Shown here: positions 1,941 through 8,450 of the stretch, one piece after another
Layout of the letters: each line of letters opens with the position of its first letter
Numbering within the stretch: the stretch's first letter is position 1
IMG/VR virus record: IMGVR_UViG_3300044630_002054
Span: 1-21,295 of that record
DNA length: 21,295 nucleotides
From: a virus
Strand: one strand, 5' to 3'
Notes under the pieces: generated by a model
Database searches by the model: none
Seen by the model: only the letters and a program-made list of their open reading frames with translations
What the model was told of the DNA's origin: nothing
Position numbers and translations under genes: made by a program

Positions 1941-3095
1941 ATGGCTAATGCTGCAATCTGGCCCGGTTCATCCTCTTTCTTTCCCGGAGATACTCCATTT
2001 GGGTTCTACGACTATGATTACCAGTTTCAGACAGATGCTGATAAGGTAGCAGACTTTTGTGCAAGAAGACTTGGATACCCTCTAGTAGACGTAGAATTAC
2101 AGGCTACCAACTTCTATACAGCTTTTGAAGAAGCAGTAACAACTTACGGTAATGAAATCTACGCTTGGAAAGTAAGACAGGATTTTCTTTCCTTAGAAGG
2201 AAGCTCTACAGGCTCTTTACTAAATAACTCAGTAATTCAACCTAACTTTGGATCTATTGTGAGAATGTCTCACCAATACGGAGAAGAAGCAGGAGTTGGC
2301 GGAACAGTTACTTGGTACACAGGTTCATTCCATACAAAAGCCGGCCAGCAGGATTATGATATGACTGCTTGGGCAGCTGCATCAGCTTCCTTAGCTCCTG
2401 GTGATACAATTGAGATTAAAAGGGTATTCTATGAATCACCCCCGGCCATCGTTCGTTACTTTGATCCTTATGCAGGAACAGGTACAGGGATGATGAACCT
2501 ACTGGATACTTTTGGATGGGGCAACTACTCACCGGCAATTAACTTCCTTCTGATGCCAATCAACTACGATCTTCAGAAGATTCAAGCTATTGAGTTTAAC
2601 GACCAGATTAGAAAGTCACAGTATTCATTTGAGTTAGTAAACAATAGATTAAGATTATTCCCAATCCCAACAGTGGATGAAGGAAAAATGTTCTTTGAAT
2701 ATATTAAAAACTCAGAAAGAAACATTGCAACAATGCCTAGTTCATCTGGGTTAGTTTCTAACGTATCAAATGTACCTTATGCCAATCCTAAGTATGTACA
2801 GATTAATTCTATTGGCAGACAATGGATTTTTGAATATACATTAGCCTTAGCTAAAGAGATGCTTGGATATGTTAGAGGTAAGTACGGCACTATTCCAATC
2901 CCAGGAGCAGAAGTTACTCTTAACCATGCAGATTTAATTACAGCAGCTACTGCCGAAAAGAACTTGCTTTTAGAGAGATTAAGAGGATATTTAGATGAGA
3001 CTTCTAGAGATAAACTACTTGAAAGAAGAGCTCTAGAGGCTGATTATAAAACAAAGGAATTGAACATGGTTCCTCAATTAATATTTATAGGATAA
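1941..3095 (+). CDS. Neck protein, T4 gp13-like
   Basis: 384 residues, longer than T4 gp13 (about 309). The N-terminal WPGSSSFFPGDTPFGFYDYD segment and the following region with RRLGYPLVDVELQATNFYTA resemble neck/head-completion proteins of T4-like phages. In T4, gp13 and gp14 form the neck that seals the filled head and accepts the tail. Order supports this: a whisker-like gene before it, then gp14- and gp15-like genes. The middle (about 120-220) is beta-rich. The C-terminal third is helical (IFEYTLALAKEMLGYVRGKY, then a Lys/Glu-rich helix). Its stop shares one base with the next start (TAATG). Confident as a neck/connector protein, less so on exact equivalence to gp13. Confidence 0.7.
   Translation: MANAAIWPGSSSFFPGDTPFGFYDYDYQFQTDADKVADFCARRLGYPLVDVELQATNFYTAFEEAVTTYGNEIYAWKVRQDFLSLEGSSTGSLLNNSVIQPNFGSIVRMSHQYGEEAGVGGTVTWYTGSFHTKAGQQDYDMTAWAAASASLAPGDTIEIKRVFYESPPAIVRYFDPYAGTGTGMMNLLDTFGWGNYSPAINFLLMPINYDLQKIQAIEFNDQIRKSQYSFELVNNRLRLFPIPTVDEGKMFFEYIKNSERNIATMPSSSGLVSNVSNVPYANPKYVQINSIGRQWIFEYTLALAKEMLGYVRGKYGTIPIPGAEVTLNHADLITAATAEKNLLLERLRGYLDETSRDKLLERRALEADYKTKELNMVPQLIFIG
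3082..3089 (+). promoter_or_regulatory. Late promoter-like octamer inside the end of the gp13-like gene
   Basis: Exact TATTTATA overlapping the last codons of the upstream gene and ending 5 bases before the ATG at 3095. Because it lies in coding sequence it is weaker evidence than the intergenic copies, but its spacing is the same. Confidence 0.35.
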
Positions 3096-3409
3096 TGAAA
3101 CTACAAGACCTATTAAACGAAGTAACATACTCAATGTACCAAACACTGGTATATGTTGAATTCTCAGAGGATACCAACATTACTGATATCGCTCAACTCA
3201 TTAGAGCTTTAAGATATGTTACAGTTGTAAACAATAAAACAGATAAAGAAGATCTAAATCCAAGAGGATTACTCGAATTAAAAGTAGTAACTCTAAAACC
3301 AGGGCAAGAAACTTTTGAATTGATTAAAAACGAAGCAATGAAGACAATCCCTACTTTAAAGAAATTCAAATATAGTACCAAACAATTACAAAAAATTGAG
3401 GAAATATAA
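3095..3409 (+). CDS. Small alpha/beta protein with a capsid-targeting-like N-terminus
   Basis: 104 residues. The N-terminus MKLQDLLNEV resembles the T4 capsid-targeting sequence MKTYQEFI.EA, and LNE fits the (L/I)xE site cut by the T4 head protease gp21. The rest looks like a ferredoxin-type fold: strand LVYVEF, helix ITDIAQLIRAL, strand YVTVVNN, strand GLLELKVVTL, helix ETFELIKNEAM, then FKYSTKQLQKIEEI. No catalytic motif is seen. It lies between the gp13- and gp14-like genes, shares one base with the gene before it and abuts the one after it, so it belongs to the late block. Whether it is packaged in the head is inference from the N-terminus alone. Confidence 0.65.
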   Translation: MKLQDLLNEVTYSMYQTLVYVEFSEDTNITDIAQLIRALRYVTVVNNKTDKEDLNPRGLLELKVVTLKPGQETFELIKNEAMKTIPTLKKFKYSTKQLQKIEEI

Positions 3410-4872: not shown

Positions 4873-6576
4873 ATGGCAGAAACTTTAATATCCCCAGGGG
4901 TACTCGCTAGAGAAAACGATCAATCGTTTATCACCTCACAACCAGTTACGGTGGGAGCAGCTATTATTGGACCTACAGTAAAAGGTCCTGTAGAAGTACC
5001 TACTGTGATTACGTCTTACAGTCAGTATCAAAATACTTTCGGTAGCACTTTCACAAGCGGTAGTAATGTATACACTTACTTTACTTCAATCGCAGCTTAT
5101 AACTATTTCAACAACGGAGGAGAAACCTTATTGGTTGCAAGAGTAGTATCAGGTTCATATTCTTCAGCTACCTCTCCTGCAAGCGGATCAAATACTTCTG
5201 GTTCAGTAGTATTCGAAACCTTATCTGAAGGAGTTATGATGAATAGCTCATCTTCTCTAAGCTCAAATGGTGCATTAGCAAGCGGAAGCATCGATAACAT
5301 CAGATGGCAAATTGTTAACTCTAACACTTCTTCAGGTACTTTTGACCTATTAGTGAGAAGAGGAGACGATACTGGTAACACTCCTATCGTATTAGAAACT
5401 TGGACTAACCTATCATTAGATCCTATGACTACTAACTATGTAGCTAAGGTAATCGGTGATCAGACTTACAACTATGCAAGCTCAGGTACCAGCTACTACT
5501 TAGAAATCACTGGATCATATCCTGTAAAATCTAAGTACTTGAGAGTTAAGTCTGTACCTTCACCAACTCCTGGATACTTTGATAACTCTGGATCTCCTAA
5601 AGCTCAATACACTAGCTCAATTCCTCTGAACGGATCAGGTTCATTCTCAGGTGCAACTGGTGATATCATGGGTAATGCCCAATACTATAACACAATTACA
5701 GACGGCAACAGATCACAAGGTATTCCTAGCGGAAGCTACTCTAACATGATCAACTTGTTGTCAAATACAGACGATTATAAGTTTAATCTTCTATTGACTC
5801 CTGGATTGTTTGATTCTTTGCAACCTTCACAAGTAACTTCAATTATTTCAAATACTCAAAACAGAGGAGATAACTTGTTCGTTCTTGATTTAGTTCCTTA
5901 CAACTCACAAGTTGCTACAGTAGTAACTCAAGCTGCTTCTAGAAACACTTCTTATGCTGCTTCTTACTGGCCTTGGGTACAGGTATTAGATCCAGATTCT
6001 GGTCAACAGGTTTGGGTACCTGCTTCAACTGTTCTCGGTGGTGTTTATGCATTCAACGATTCAGTTGCTGAGCCTTGGTTTGCACCTGCTGGTATCAACA
6101 GAGGTGGTTTAGGTCAAGTAATCAGAGCAGAAAGAAAATTAGCTCAATCTGACAGAGATACTCTATACAGCGGTAAAGTTAACCCAATTGCTACTTTTCC
6201 AGGACAAGGTACAGTAGTCTACGGACAAAAGACTTTGCAGACTAAAGCTTCTGCTTTGGATAGAGTAAACGTAAGAAGATTGTTGATCTCTTTGAAATCT
6301 TACATCTCTCAAGTAGCTAACAACTTAGTATTCGAACAGAATAGTGTTGCTACTAGAAATTCTTTCTTGGCACAAGTTAATCCTTACCTAGAATCAGTTC
6401 AACAGAGACAGGGACTTTACGCTTTCAAAGTAGTGATGGACGAATCAAACAACACAGCAGATGTAGTTGACAGAAACGAGATGGTTGGTCAAATTTATAT
6501 CCAACCTACTAAGACTGCCGAATTCATCTACTTAGATTTCAACATTACTCCAACAGGAACTACATTCCCAGGATAA
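4873..6576 (+). CDS. Contractile tail sheath protein, T4 gp18-like
   Basis: 567 residues; T4 gp18 is about 659. The N-terminus (MAETLISPGVLARENDQSF, then VTVGAAIIGPTVKGPVEVPT and YFNNGGETLLVARV at about 77-90) is the classic phage sheath opening. A Ser/Gly/Thr-rich, variable surface domain fills about 95-300. The conserved C-terminal core includes SYWPWVQVLDPDSGQQVWVPAS, the segment with FAPAGINRGGL, VNVRRLLISLKSYI, and the ending GLYAFKVVMDESNN to YIQPTKTAEFIYLDFNITPT. Sheath subunits assemble around the tube and contract on infection. It is followed by the tube gene, as in T4. Very confident. Confidence 0.95.
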   Translation: MAETLISPGVLARENDQSFITSQPVTVGAAIIGPTVKGPVEVPTVITSYSQYQNTFGSTFTSGSNVYTYFTSIAAYNYFNNGGETLLVARVVSGSYSSATSPASGSNTSGSVVFETLSEGVMMNSSSSLSSNGALASGSIDNIRWQIVNSNTSSGTFDLLVRRGDDTGNTPIVLETWTNLSLDPMTTNYVAKVIGDQTYNYASSGTSYYLEITGSYPVKSKYLRVKSVPSPTPGYFDNSGSPKAQYTSSIPLNGSGSFSGATGDIMGNAQYYNTITDGNRSQGIPSGSYSNMINLLSNTDDYKFNLLLTPGLFDSLQPSQVTSIISNTQNRGDNLFVLDLVPYNSQVATVVTQAASRNTSYAASYWPWVQVLDPDSGQQVWVPASTVLGGVYAFNDSVAEPWFAPAGINRGGLGQVIRAERKLAQSDRDTLYSGKVNPIATFPGQGTVVYGQKTLQTKASALDRVNVRRLLISLKSYISQVANNLVFEQNSVATRNSFLAQVNPYLESVQQRQGLYAFKVVMDESNNTADVVDRNEMVGQIYIQPTKTAEFIYLDFNITPTGTTFPG

Positions 6577-6613: not shown

Positions 6614-7102
6614 ATGGCAATTTTAACAGCAGACGAAATTTTCTTCACCGCGTTTGAACCCAAAGTACAGAATAGATTTATCATGTACGTTGATGGTATT
6701 CCAGCTTACCTTATTAAAGGGGTAAATGGATTAGGATTCGAACAGGGCGAAATTGTATTGAACCATATTAACGTTTACCGTAAAGTAAAAGGTAAATTGA
6801 GATGGAATGATGTAACTTTGACATTATTTGATCCTATCACTCCTTCAGGAGCACAGGCAGTAATGGAATGGGTACGTTTACACCACGAATCAGTAACTGG
6901 CCGTGATGGTTATTCTGACTTCTACAAGAAGGACGTAACAATCGACATCGTAGGTCCAGTAGGTGATATTGTTTCTGAGTGGGTACTAAAAGGAGCTTTT
7001 GTTAAGACTGCTGATTTTGGTGAATTAAACTTCGATAACGATTCAACTGCACAAAACATTTCCTTGACTTTAGGAATGGATTATTGTATCTTGAACTTCT
7101 AA
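6614..7102 (+). CDS. Tail tube protein, T4 gp19-like
   Basis: 162 residues, the same size as T4 gp19 (163). Typical tube features are FIMYVDGIPAYLIKGVNGLG (about 17-36), a charged hairpin (NHINVYRKVKGKLRWNDVTL), FDPITPSGAQAVMEWVRLHH, and the C-terminal strands with ADFGELNFDNDSTAQNISLT. Tube subunits form stacked hexameric rings that DNA passes through. It is followed by an intrinsic terminator, so a sheath-tube unit ends here. Very confident. Confidence 0.95.
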   Translation: MAILTADEIFFTAFEPKVQNRFIMYVDGIPAYLIKGVNGLGFEQGEIVLNHINVYRKVKGKLRWNDVTLTLFDPITPSGAQAVMEWVRLHHESVTGRDGYSDFYKKDVTIDIVGPVGDIVSEWVLKGAFVKTADFGELNFDNDSTAQNISLTLGMDYCILNF

Positions 7103-7120
7103 GTAAGAATAATCTTAAAG

Positions 7121-7155
7121 AAAGAGCCCTCCTATTTATTAGAGAGGGCTTTTTT
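7121..7155 (+). terminator. Rho-independent terminator after the tube gene, with a promoter-like octamer in its loop
   Basis: AGCCCTC (7125-7131) pairs exactly with GAGGGCT (7144-7150) around a 12-base loop, followed by T at 7150-7155. The upstream A residues can pair with part of the T run. The loop contains TATTTATT at 7133-7140. Confidence 0.85.
7133..7140 (+). promoter_or_regulatory. Late promoter-like octamer TATTTATT in a terminator loop
   Basis: It lies in the loop of the 7121-7155 terminator and 20 bases before the ATG at 7161. It could restart transcription for the kinase-like gene at the point where the tube transcript ends. Confidence 0.4.
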
Positions 7156-7160
7156 ATTAT

Positions 7161-7667
7161 ATGAAACTCATAGATATTTTAAACGAACTAGTTATGCCAC
7201 CGGCTTTAAAGTCGAAACAATACGAATTAGAGAAGGACGGGTATACTAAAATCGGAGGTGGAGATAATGGCATTGTAATGGAAAAAGGATCCGACGTAAA
7301 GAAGCTTACTACGGATGTTGATGAGCTAGAACACGCTGAGAAACTATTGAACCACTCTTTTTCATGTATCATCCCCATCTACAAAGTAGAGAGACTTGCT
7401 GGAGGTAAATCAGGCGTTATCGATATGACAAATGCCGAGCAGTTAGCACCTCAGGAAGCAGAAGAGATTGCAGCTAATGGAACTAAAGCAGAAGATTATT
7501 TAGTTTACGATGAAGAATTAGATCCTAGATTATCAGATAAATTAAAACAGTTCTTAGTTACCCTAAAAGAAGCATTCAAGAAAGCAGGTATTAATGCAGA
7601 TGAAATCGATTGGTCACCAACAAACGTTATGAATTACAAAGGAAATTACGTTCTAGTGGACGTATAA
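7161..7667 (+). CDS. Minimal protein-kinase-like protein with a capsid-targeting-like N-terminus
   Basis: 168 residues. The N-terminus MKLIDILNEL matches the tag on the protein at 3095. Then follow a glycine-rich loop GGGDNGIV (32-39, fitting GxGxxGxV), candidate ATP-binding lysines K47/K48, possible helix-C glutamates E57/E60, a hinge-like VIDMTNAEQL (86-95), a catalytic-loop-like DWSPTN (150-155, the spacing of HRDxxxxN but without the His-Arg), and a final LVDV whose D167 has the position of the DFG aspartate. The protein ends there, so the activation segment and lower C-lobe are missing. It may be a minimal kinase, a pseudokinase or another ATP-grasping protein. It sits alone between a terminator and the gp26-like gene. 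The kinase resemblance is my reading of motifs and has not been tested by search. Confidence 0.6.
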   Translation: MKLIDILNELVMPPALKSKQYELEKDGYTKIGGGDNGIVMEKGSDVKKLTTDVDELEHAEKLLNHSFSCIIPIYKVERLAGGKSGVIDMTNAEQLAPQEAEEIAANGTKAEDYLVYDEELDPRLSDKLKQFLVTLKEAFKKAGINADEIDWSPTNVMNYKGNYVLVDV

Positions 7668-7715: not shown

Positions 7716-8450
7716 ATGTCAGAATTCAAATTCCCAACAGAGGTTATTGATCTTCCTTCAAAAGGATTACTTTACCCTAAAGATTCACCACTTGCTTCCG
7801 GAAAGCTTCAAATGAAATACATGACAGCAAAGGAAGAAGACATCTTAACCAATCAAAACTACATCCAGAAAGGAATTGTAATTGATAAGCTACTTCAGTC
7901 TTTGATTGTAGATAACATCGATTACACTCAACTAGTTTCAGGAGATCAAAATGCAGTTATGATTGCTGCTCGTATTTTAGGTTACGGTAAAGATTACGAG
8001 TTTACTTATGGCGGTGAAAAGCAAGCAGTTGATTTAACTACGTTAGAAGATAAACCTTTTGATGAATCTTTAATCACTCCTCACGTTAACGAGTTTAAGT
8101 ATACATTACCTTTTTCCAAAACAGAAATTACTTTTAAGATTTTAACTGTTGGAGACGAAGATAAAATTAGAGAAGAACTTGCCGGCTTGAAGAAAATCAA
8201 CAAAGATGCATCTCCTGAATTATCAACCCGGTTAAAATATATTATTACATCGGTAGATCAAGTAAGGGAACCAGGAGCAATTAGATCTTTCGTAGATAAC
8301 CAGTTACTTGCAAGAGAATCAAAAGCATTAAGAGAGTATATCAGAAGAGTTCAACCAGATATCGATTTAACTGTTAAAGTTACCTACAACGGTGTTGAGG
8401 AGGACGTCGCATTACCAATTAATGTGAGCTTTTTTTGGCCTGACGCCTGA
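7716..8450 (+). CDS. T4 gp26-like baseplate hub / tail assembly protein, upstream frame of a probable frameshift pair
   Basis: 244 residues in the zero frame (T4 gp26 is about 208). The start FPTEVIDLPSKGLLYPKDSP, then LQMKYMTAKEEDILTNQNYI (about 30-50), is characteristic of the T4-type gp26 baseplate family. Helical segments around 150-210 and a final beta hairpin (LTVKVTYNGVEEDVALPINV) follow. It lies just before the tape measure, as do gp26/gp51 in T4 and tail assembly chaperones in other phages. The zero frame ends SFFWPDA then TGA, the only TGA stop among the complete late genes from 63 to 17828. Seven T at 8430-8436 precede it, and the +1 frame continues as protein-like sequence. A fusion would have about 325 residues. 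Confidence 0.75.
   Translation: MSEFKFPTEVIDLPSKGLLYPKDSPLASGKLQMKYMTAKEEDILTNQNYIQKGIVIDKLLQSLIVDNIDYTQLVSGDQNAVMIAARILGYGKDYEFTYGGEKQAVDLTTLEDKPFDESLITPHVNEFKYTLPFSKTEITFKILTVGDEDKIREELAGLKKINKDASPELSTRLKYIITSVDQVREPGAIRSFVDNQLLARESKALREYIRRVQPDIDLTVKVTYNGVEEDVALPINVSFFWPDA
8430..8436 (+). other. Candidate programmed ribosomal frameshift site (T7 run)
   Basis: Seven consecutive T are read as TTT TTT T in the gp26-like frame. Moving one base forward (or two back) after them enters a frame that reads GLTPEHRKFIFDQIHQIVF and joins the ORF ending at 8694. The zero frame stops 12 bases later with TGA. GAGGAGG at 8397-8403 is a purine-rich stretch upstream, but it is too far away to be a clear stimulator. 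Confidence 0.5.

Follow-up and report, generated by a model that had tools for sequence, protein, structure and literature searches.

A conserved, predicted half-kinase of T4-like viruses, ending at the DFG aspartate, with a candidate T4-type capsid-targeting tag

In this study, we analyzed P0001, a protein of 168 residues encoded within a 21,295-base stretch of an IMG/VR virus record (the window) that covers a portion of the neck and tail gene cluster of a T4-like myovirus. The P0001 gene (7161–7667, plus strand) follows the genes for the tail sheath (4873–6576) and the tail tube (6614–7102) and precedes the gene for a hub-like protein (7716–8450). The same arrangement is typical of the near relatives examined, in which the P0001 gene immediately follows the one for the tail tube and the hub gene is mostly next. 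By its tail sheath, the window virus is closest among isolates to Flavobacterium phage immuto (57% identity), and a Bacteroidota host is therefore likely. The P0001 family is from freshwater T4-like viruses whose hosts are probably Bacteroidota. The neck cluster also has a small ORF of unknown function (3095–3409, plus strand) that starts MKLQDLLNE; its likely counterpart in immuto is gp060, whose start is shortened to MRKLVNE.

Between the tail tube gene and the P0001 start there is a terminator-like hairpin (7120–7156, plus strand; fold −21.9 kcal/mol, z −5.35), the 3' end of which is about four bases before the P0001 ATG. A core of 27 bases has the same sequence in almost every relative from the two family branches nearest to the window, and a 30-base form has exact matches in 65 viral contigs, a near-invariance that includes the loop. 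Codons 1–9, which come after the hairpin, also vary little. The hairpin probably reduces expression of what follows the tail tube gene. It may also be a homing site, as suggested by HNH endonuclease ORFs at three loci (L035, L081 and L148) that end inside the hairpin loop sequence.

A sequence-only reading of this DNA had described P0001 as kinase-like, and the ORF and the motifs on which that description was based are real: a glycine-rich ATP loop, G32-G-G-D-N-G-I-V39 (GGGDNGIV with G32, G34, G37 and V39; 7254–7277), the lysine pair K47/K48, a catalytic loop, D150-W-S-P-T-N155 (7608–7625), and the DFG-type aspartate D167 in a D167-V168-stop terminus (7659–7667), all on the plus strand. The chain ends one residue past D167, with no Phe-Gly following it. 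In 29 of 100,000 same-composition shuffles the full pattern GxGxxGx[VIAL]..K..DxxxxN..D was present, and GxGxxG alone was present in 4.5%. The stronger argument for the motifs is their conservation across relatives, which we gathered by scanning viral contigs and which provided an alignment of 46 proteins. Invariant in all 46 are E9, G27, G32, G34, G37, K48, T50, T51, D52, E55, I73, M89, N155, M157, G161, D167 and V168. The alignment also separated the two lysines that had been proposed as candidates, as K48 (7302–7304, plus strand) is the invariant β3 lysine of a VxK motif and K47, for which several of the aligned proteins have L, M or V, was ruled out as the catalytic lysine. On helix αC, the invariant E55 and nearly invariant E57 (7323–7331, plus strand) are candidate partners of the lysine in a Lys-Glu pair.

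Searches by sequence provided few leads to the identity of P0001. As a single sequence it had no significant match in Pfam, PHROG or the PDB, and a profile-to-PDB sequence search had chance-level matches only, including NleH kinase chains (E 2.4–2.6). One relative matched Pkinase (HMM 124–141) in register and weakly (E 0.38), and another had a weak, in-register match over the ATP loop to the T7-type kinase family PHROG 15752 (E 0.0036). The latter family is that of the phage kinase gp0.7, and its match was to that one relative, with none from P0001 itself. The T7 kinase is made after infection.

Structure prediction was more informative. AlphaFold2 produced a poor model of P0001 from the single sequence (pLDDT 40) and a confident one with the family alignment of 46 relatives (pLDDT 90.6, pTM 0.83). 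The elements of that model are in kinase order, β1-β2-β3-αC-β4-β5-αD-αE-β7-β8 (β1 at residues 29–34, β2 at 37–42, αC at 53–61), and the chain ends after β8 at D167-V168, so that the activation segment and the C-lobe that come after DFG are absent. The comparison with known kinase folds that the sequence-only reading had proposed was made with Foldseek, and the best 50 PDB matches listed were all protein kinases or APH-type phosphotransferases (including CDC7, CK2 and APH), with probabilities of 0.99–1.00, a best E of 1.8e-4 among the matches listed and a TM of about 0.5 over the query. A TM of that size to solved kinases is as expected for half a domain and is not conclusive on activity. Among viral models, small uncharacterized phage proteins were matched first, followed by named phage protein kinases. 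The predicted structure, the Foldseek matches and the family-wide conservation together bear out the kinase-like description. P0001 is predicted to correspond to the first two thirds of a protein kinase, keeping the N-lobe, the hinge, the αE helix, the catalytic strand pair and the residues that bind ATP and metal. By this model its kinase fold stops at the DFG aspartate, which makes it a half-kinase as opposed to a broken kinase.

The position of the stop codon had been viewed as odd for a working kinase. It is indeed at the metal-binding aspartate, but it is a conserved feature of the family and not a defect. The aligned proteins form three branches: the window's own (57–100% identity), a second at about 50%, and one that includes the immuto homolog (28–33%). 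The D167-V168 end is identical in all complete relatives across the three, whereas the downstream gene differs by branch, being the hub gene, a fibre-like gene or another tagged gene. The same end despite different downstream genes indicates protein design rather than damage. That only a valine and a stop follow D167 could be read as the mark of a complete kinase that was cut short and is now decaying. However, that explanation is rejected as highly improbable, since the end is conserved, the predicted fold is compact and of high confidence, nine records each have one intact copy of the gene, and the family is under purifying selection (dN/dS 0.04–0.20 in comparisons with the window, and up to 0.42 in the most distant pair of the immuto branch).

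Whether the fold supports ordinary phosphotransfer is less clear-cut. Among the residues whose loss in homologs the sequence-only reading had regarded as evidence against a kinase, G32, G34, G37, K48 and D167 are present in all 46 proteins, while D150 is lost in the immuto branch. In the window's branch and the next, D150 is kept with canonical spacing in 33 of 33 aligned members. All 13 immuto-branch sequences have a different residue at that site, five positions before N155, yet keep K48, N155 and D167, and activity is consequently not certain throughout the family. Together with the absence of the C-lobe substrate platform, this replacement speaks for another reading, in which P0001 is a pseudokinase that binds ATP, or else an atypical transferase (for example an AMPylator), and works through a bound partner without carrying out ordinary protein phosphorylation. 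AMPylating pseudokinases retain the Lys, the Asn and the DFG-type Asp without the catalytic Asp. We consider such a role a substantial possibility that falls short of probable, as the retention of D150 in both nearer branches argues for phosphotransfer there, and OspG, which has no subdomains VIII–XI, is active once ubiquitin is bound (PMC3585378).

Half-kinases have been described in other settings. P0001 resembles OspG and NleH in that subdomains I–VII are kept with their catalytic residues and VIII–XI are absent; these are delivered proteins, as P0001 may be, although their route is type III secretion into eukaryotic cells (PMC3585378), and they have no significant sequence relation to P0001 (profile E about 2.4–2.6, chance level). 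Kinase domains without a C-lobe have also been predicted in polyvalent proteins of phages and prophages of Bacteroidetes and the Verrucomicrobia-Chlamydia group, with stand-alone versions among them, and packaging and injection have been predicted for the polyvalent proteins that contain them (Iyer et al. 2017, PMC5512222). P0001 is like that domain in having lost the entire C-terminal subdomain with active-site residues kept, and in its probable association with Bacteroidota phages (PMC5512222). Unlike it, P0001 has no Gln in the last N-lobe strand (β5 is GVIDMT), no conserved His with an insert before D150, and an Asp (D35) where those domains have Glu ahead of strand 2; its T4-type tag is a further difference. 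Two peptide patterns, a limited search, revealed no P0001 homolog in 84,980 bacterial and archaeal genomes. Searches of the open-access literature, which leaves out most subscription journals, turned up no account of the family. We regard the P0001 family as previously undescribed, its new feature being the combination of a stand-alone half-kinase that ends at the DFG aspartate with a T4-type tag.

The tag is the first nine residues, MKLIDILNE (7161–7187, plus strand), predicted here to be a capsid-targeting propeptide with a putative L/I-x-E cleavage site at residue 9. Within L7-N8-E9, the glutamate is invariant in the 46 relatives and L7 nearly so; the family consensus is MKLxxILxE, with L/I-x-E versions (ILNE, LLNE, ILKE, LLKE and IIRE) across all branches. 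Residues 5–9 have pLDDT values below 50 in a model that is otherwise confident. In T4, capsid-targeting propeptides are N-terminal, 10–19 residues long and cut by gp21 after L/I-x-E (PMC9026906). The P0001 tag is slightly shorter, at 9 residues versus 10–19 (PMC9026906). The likeness is to Alt and the internal proteins of T4, which have a short N-terminal propeptide ending in L/I-x-E, and phages related to the window virus encode a gp21-type protease (PMC9026906 for the T4 system). Unlike the T4 cargo, which is an ADP-ribosyltransferase or a small basic protein, the cargo in P0001 would be a predicted kinase fold.

Similar starts are present on unrelated proteins. Starts of the MKLxxILxE type occur on about six distinct families, with 13 N-terminal matches versus 0.27 expected. 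This count includes homologs more than once, Met-Lys is a frequent way for proteins to start, and the pattern itself was designed with P0001 already in view. The proteins with such starts include the 3095–3409 ORF of the window, a 143-residue protein of the related contig G002 (MKLVDILNEA), a zeta-toxin-family protein of that contig (MVKLVDLILE) and immuto gp231 (MIKLIDLLTE). G002 encodes a T4-type major capsid protein, Gp23, and a Peptidase_S77 prohead protease (PF03420, 3e-30), the start of which (MSKDLLIE) resembles the P0001 tag, as does that of a nearby scaffold-like protein (MSNRELLKEA). A gp21-type prohead protease is thus encoded in the relatives G002 and immuto; the window fragment stops short of the head genes. 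The late genes of immuto are enriched for N-termini of this kind, with 16 of 70 versus 1–7 of 70 at downstream offsets. When L/I-x-E was counted crudely across the whole immuto protein set, there was no N-terminal enrichment (34 of 178 in residues 1–14 versus 20–36 of 178 in later segments); the enrichment was seen only in late genes, above all with a stricter motif.

Several further observations came from these comparisons. The zeta-toxin-family protein of contig G002, a P-loop protein (L175:4026-4859, minus strand; PF06414, 9e-9), is possibly another packaged kinase. On G002, the contig with the head genes, there is also a 1306-residue protein (L175:109-4029, minus strand) with the tag-like start MNQLVESLVKPFLTED, which has a weak RegB-like match and a strong match to Fe/Mn superoxide dismutase. 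In immuto (NC_055915), gp003, gp076, gp077 and gp092, together with gp083 and gp230, have two more recurrent N-terminal tags, MENFDLKKFLVENKLTxNSxLLxE-like and MKKQILSEQFKRMQxLAGIITES.

Evidence of such tags on packaged proteins was obtained from cyanophage S-CREM2, for which a list of virion proteins detected by mass spectrometry has been published (PMC10665884). Four non-structural or hypothetical virion proteins of S-CREM2 have a single tag form, MKx[FL]xxFLxE: a SAM hydrolase (MKDFDSFLEE), gp13 (MKDLHSFLTE), the APH-like kinase gp14 (MKRFDAFLTE) and a cytidylyltransferase (MKNFSSFLTE). In the strict-motif list for this phage, the form is present in no undetected protein. With a broader motif and proteins of at least 60 residues, 7 of 28 detected non-structural or hypothetical proteins were tagged versus 8 of 134 in the comparison group (p 0.005), a difference that fades at a minimum of 100 residues (p 0.12). 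S-CREM2 thus provides a link between tags of this kind and virions in a T4-like phage that is not T4 itself, and the proteins concerned include a published virion kinase. The tagged virion proteins in its genome (OR473000) are gp6, gp13, gp14 and gp154, with gp12 listed alongside, and the Cas9-like protein of its virion has a variant, RFASFMAE, at around residue 20.

A different interpretation of the N-terminus is that it does not target the head. P0001 would then never be packaged, and would instead help to assemble the tail or baseplate or act inside the infected cell at a late stage. The gene adjoins that for the tail tube, mostly with the hub gene next, and a neck-cluster ORF has the same type of N-terminus. 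In addition, part of the tag conservation may be at the DNA level, as codons 1–9 vary little and lie next to the conserved hairpin and to a site where a homing endonuclease has likely inserted. Nevertheless, we consider this rather unlikely. In immuto the tube gene runs straight to the hub gene with no P0001 homolog between them, and the homolog, gp093, whose tag ends in ILKE, is in another neighborhood, among other tagged genes, where its codons differ but its L/I-x-E end is the same; moreover, the S-CREM2 tags mark virion proteins. The position between tail tube and hub would by itself be no pointer to the head, but genes for proteins with T4-type tags can lie outside the head cluster. The capsid-tag resemblance first noted from the sequence has therefore gained support of an indirect kind, from the invariant E9, the unrelated tagged proteins, the protease and scaffold-like protein of a relative, and the S-CREM2 tags. 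As judged from sequence comparison, residues 1–9 of P0001 are most likely a T4-type capsid-targeting propeptide, which makes packaging in the head and injection plausible.

The proposal that a head-borne kinase would be a novel use was too strong, as injected half-kinases have been predicted (PMC5512222) and virion-associated kinases have been detected by mass spectrometry in the cyanophages S-CREM2 (gp14), S-CRM01, S-TIM5 and S-CBWM1, which are mostly T4-like (PMC10665884). The tag of S-CREM2 gp14 has the same layout as that of P0001, but gp14 has 755 residues and a recognizable Pkinase/APH match, whereas P0001 has 168 and ends at the DFG aspartate.

Considering the computed fold, the conserved residues, end and tag, and the purifying selection, the best explanation, which we hold with moderate confidence, is that P0001 is a stand-alone half-kinase that is packaged by its tag, trimmed by a protease and delivered with the DNA. 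The tag would bring P0001 into the prohead core during late expression, where a gp21-type protease would cleave after E9, and the trimmed protein (residues 10–168) would enter the cell with the DNA. There it would probably bind ATP-Mg and then phosphorylate, otherwise modify, or occupy a host or phage protein. That target would supply the substrate platform that P0001 lacks, or stand in for it, much as OspG becomes active on binding ubiquitin. A more specific version, a split-kinase switch at entry in which the packaged and trimmed half-kinase is active only once a host protein completes its C-lobe, appears quite improbable.

P0001 adds a compact candidate to the short list of enzymes carried in phage heads, and an isolate with a homolog exists in Flavobacterium phage immuto. 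Should P0001 prove active, it would indicate how small a part of the kinase fold suffices for function. In addition, the comparison of tags points to L/I-x-E N-termini as a means of predicting which enzymes are packaged in T4-like phages other than T4.
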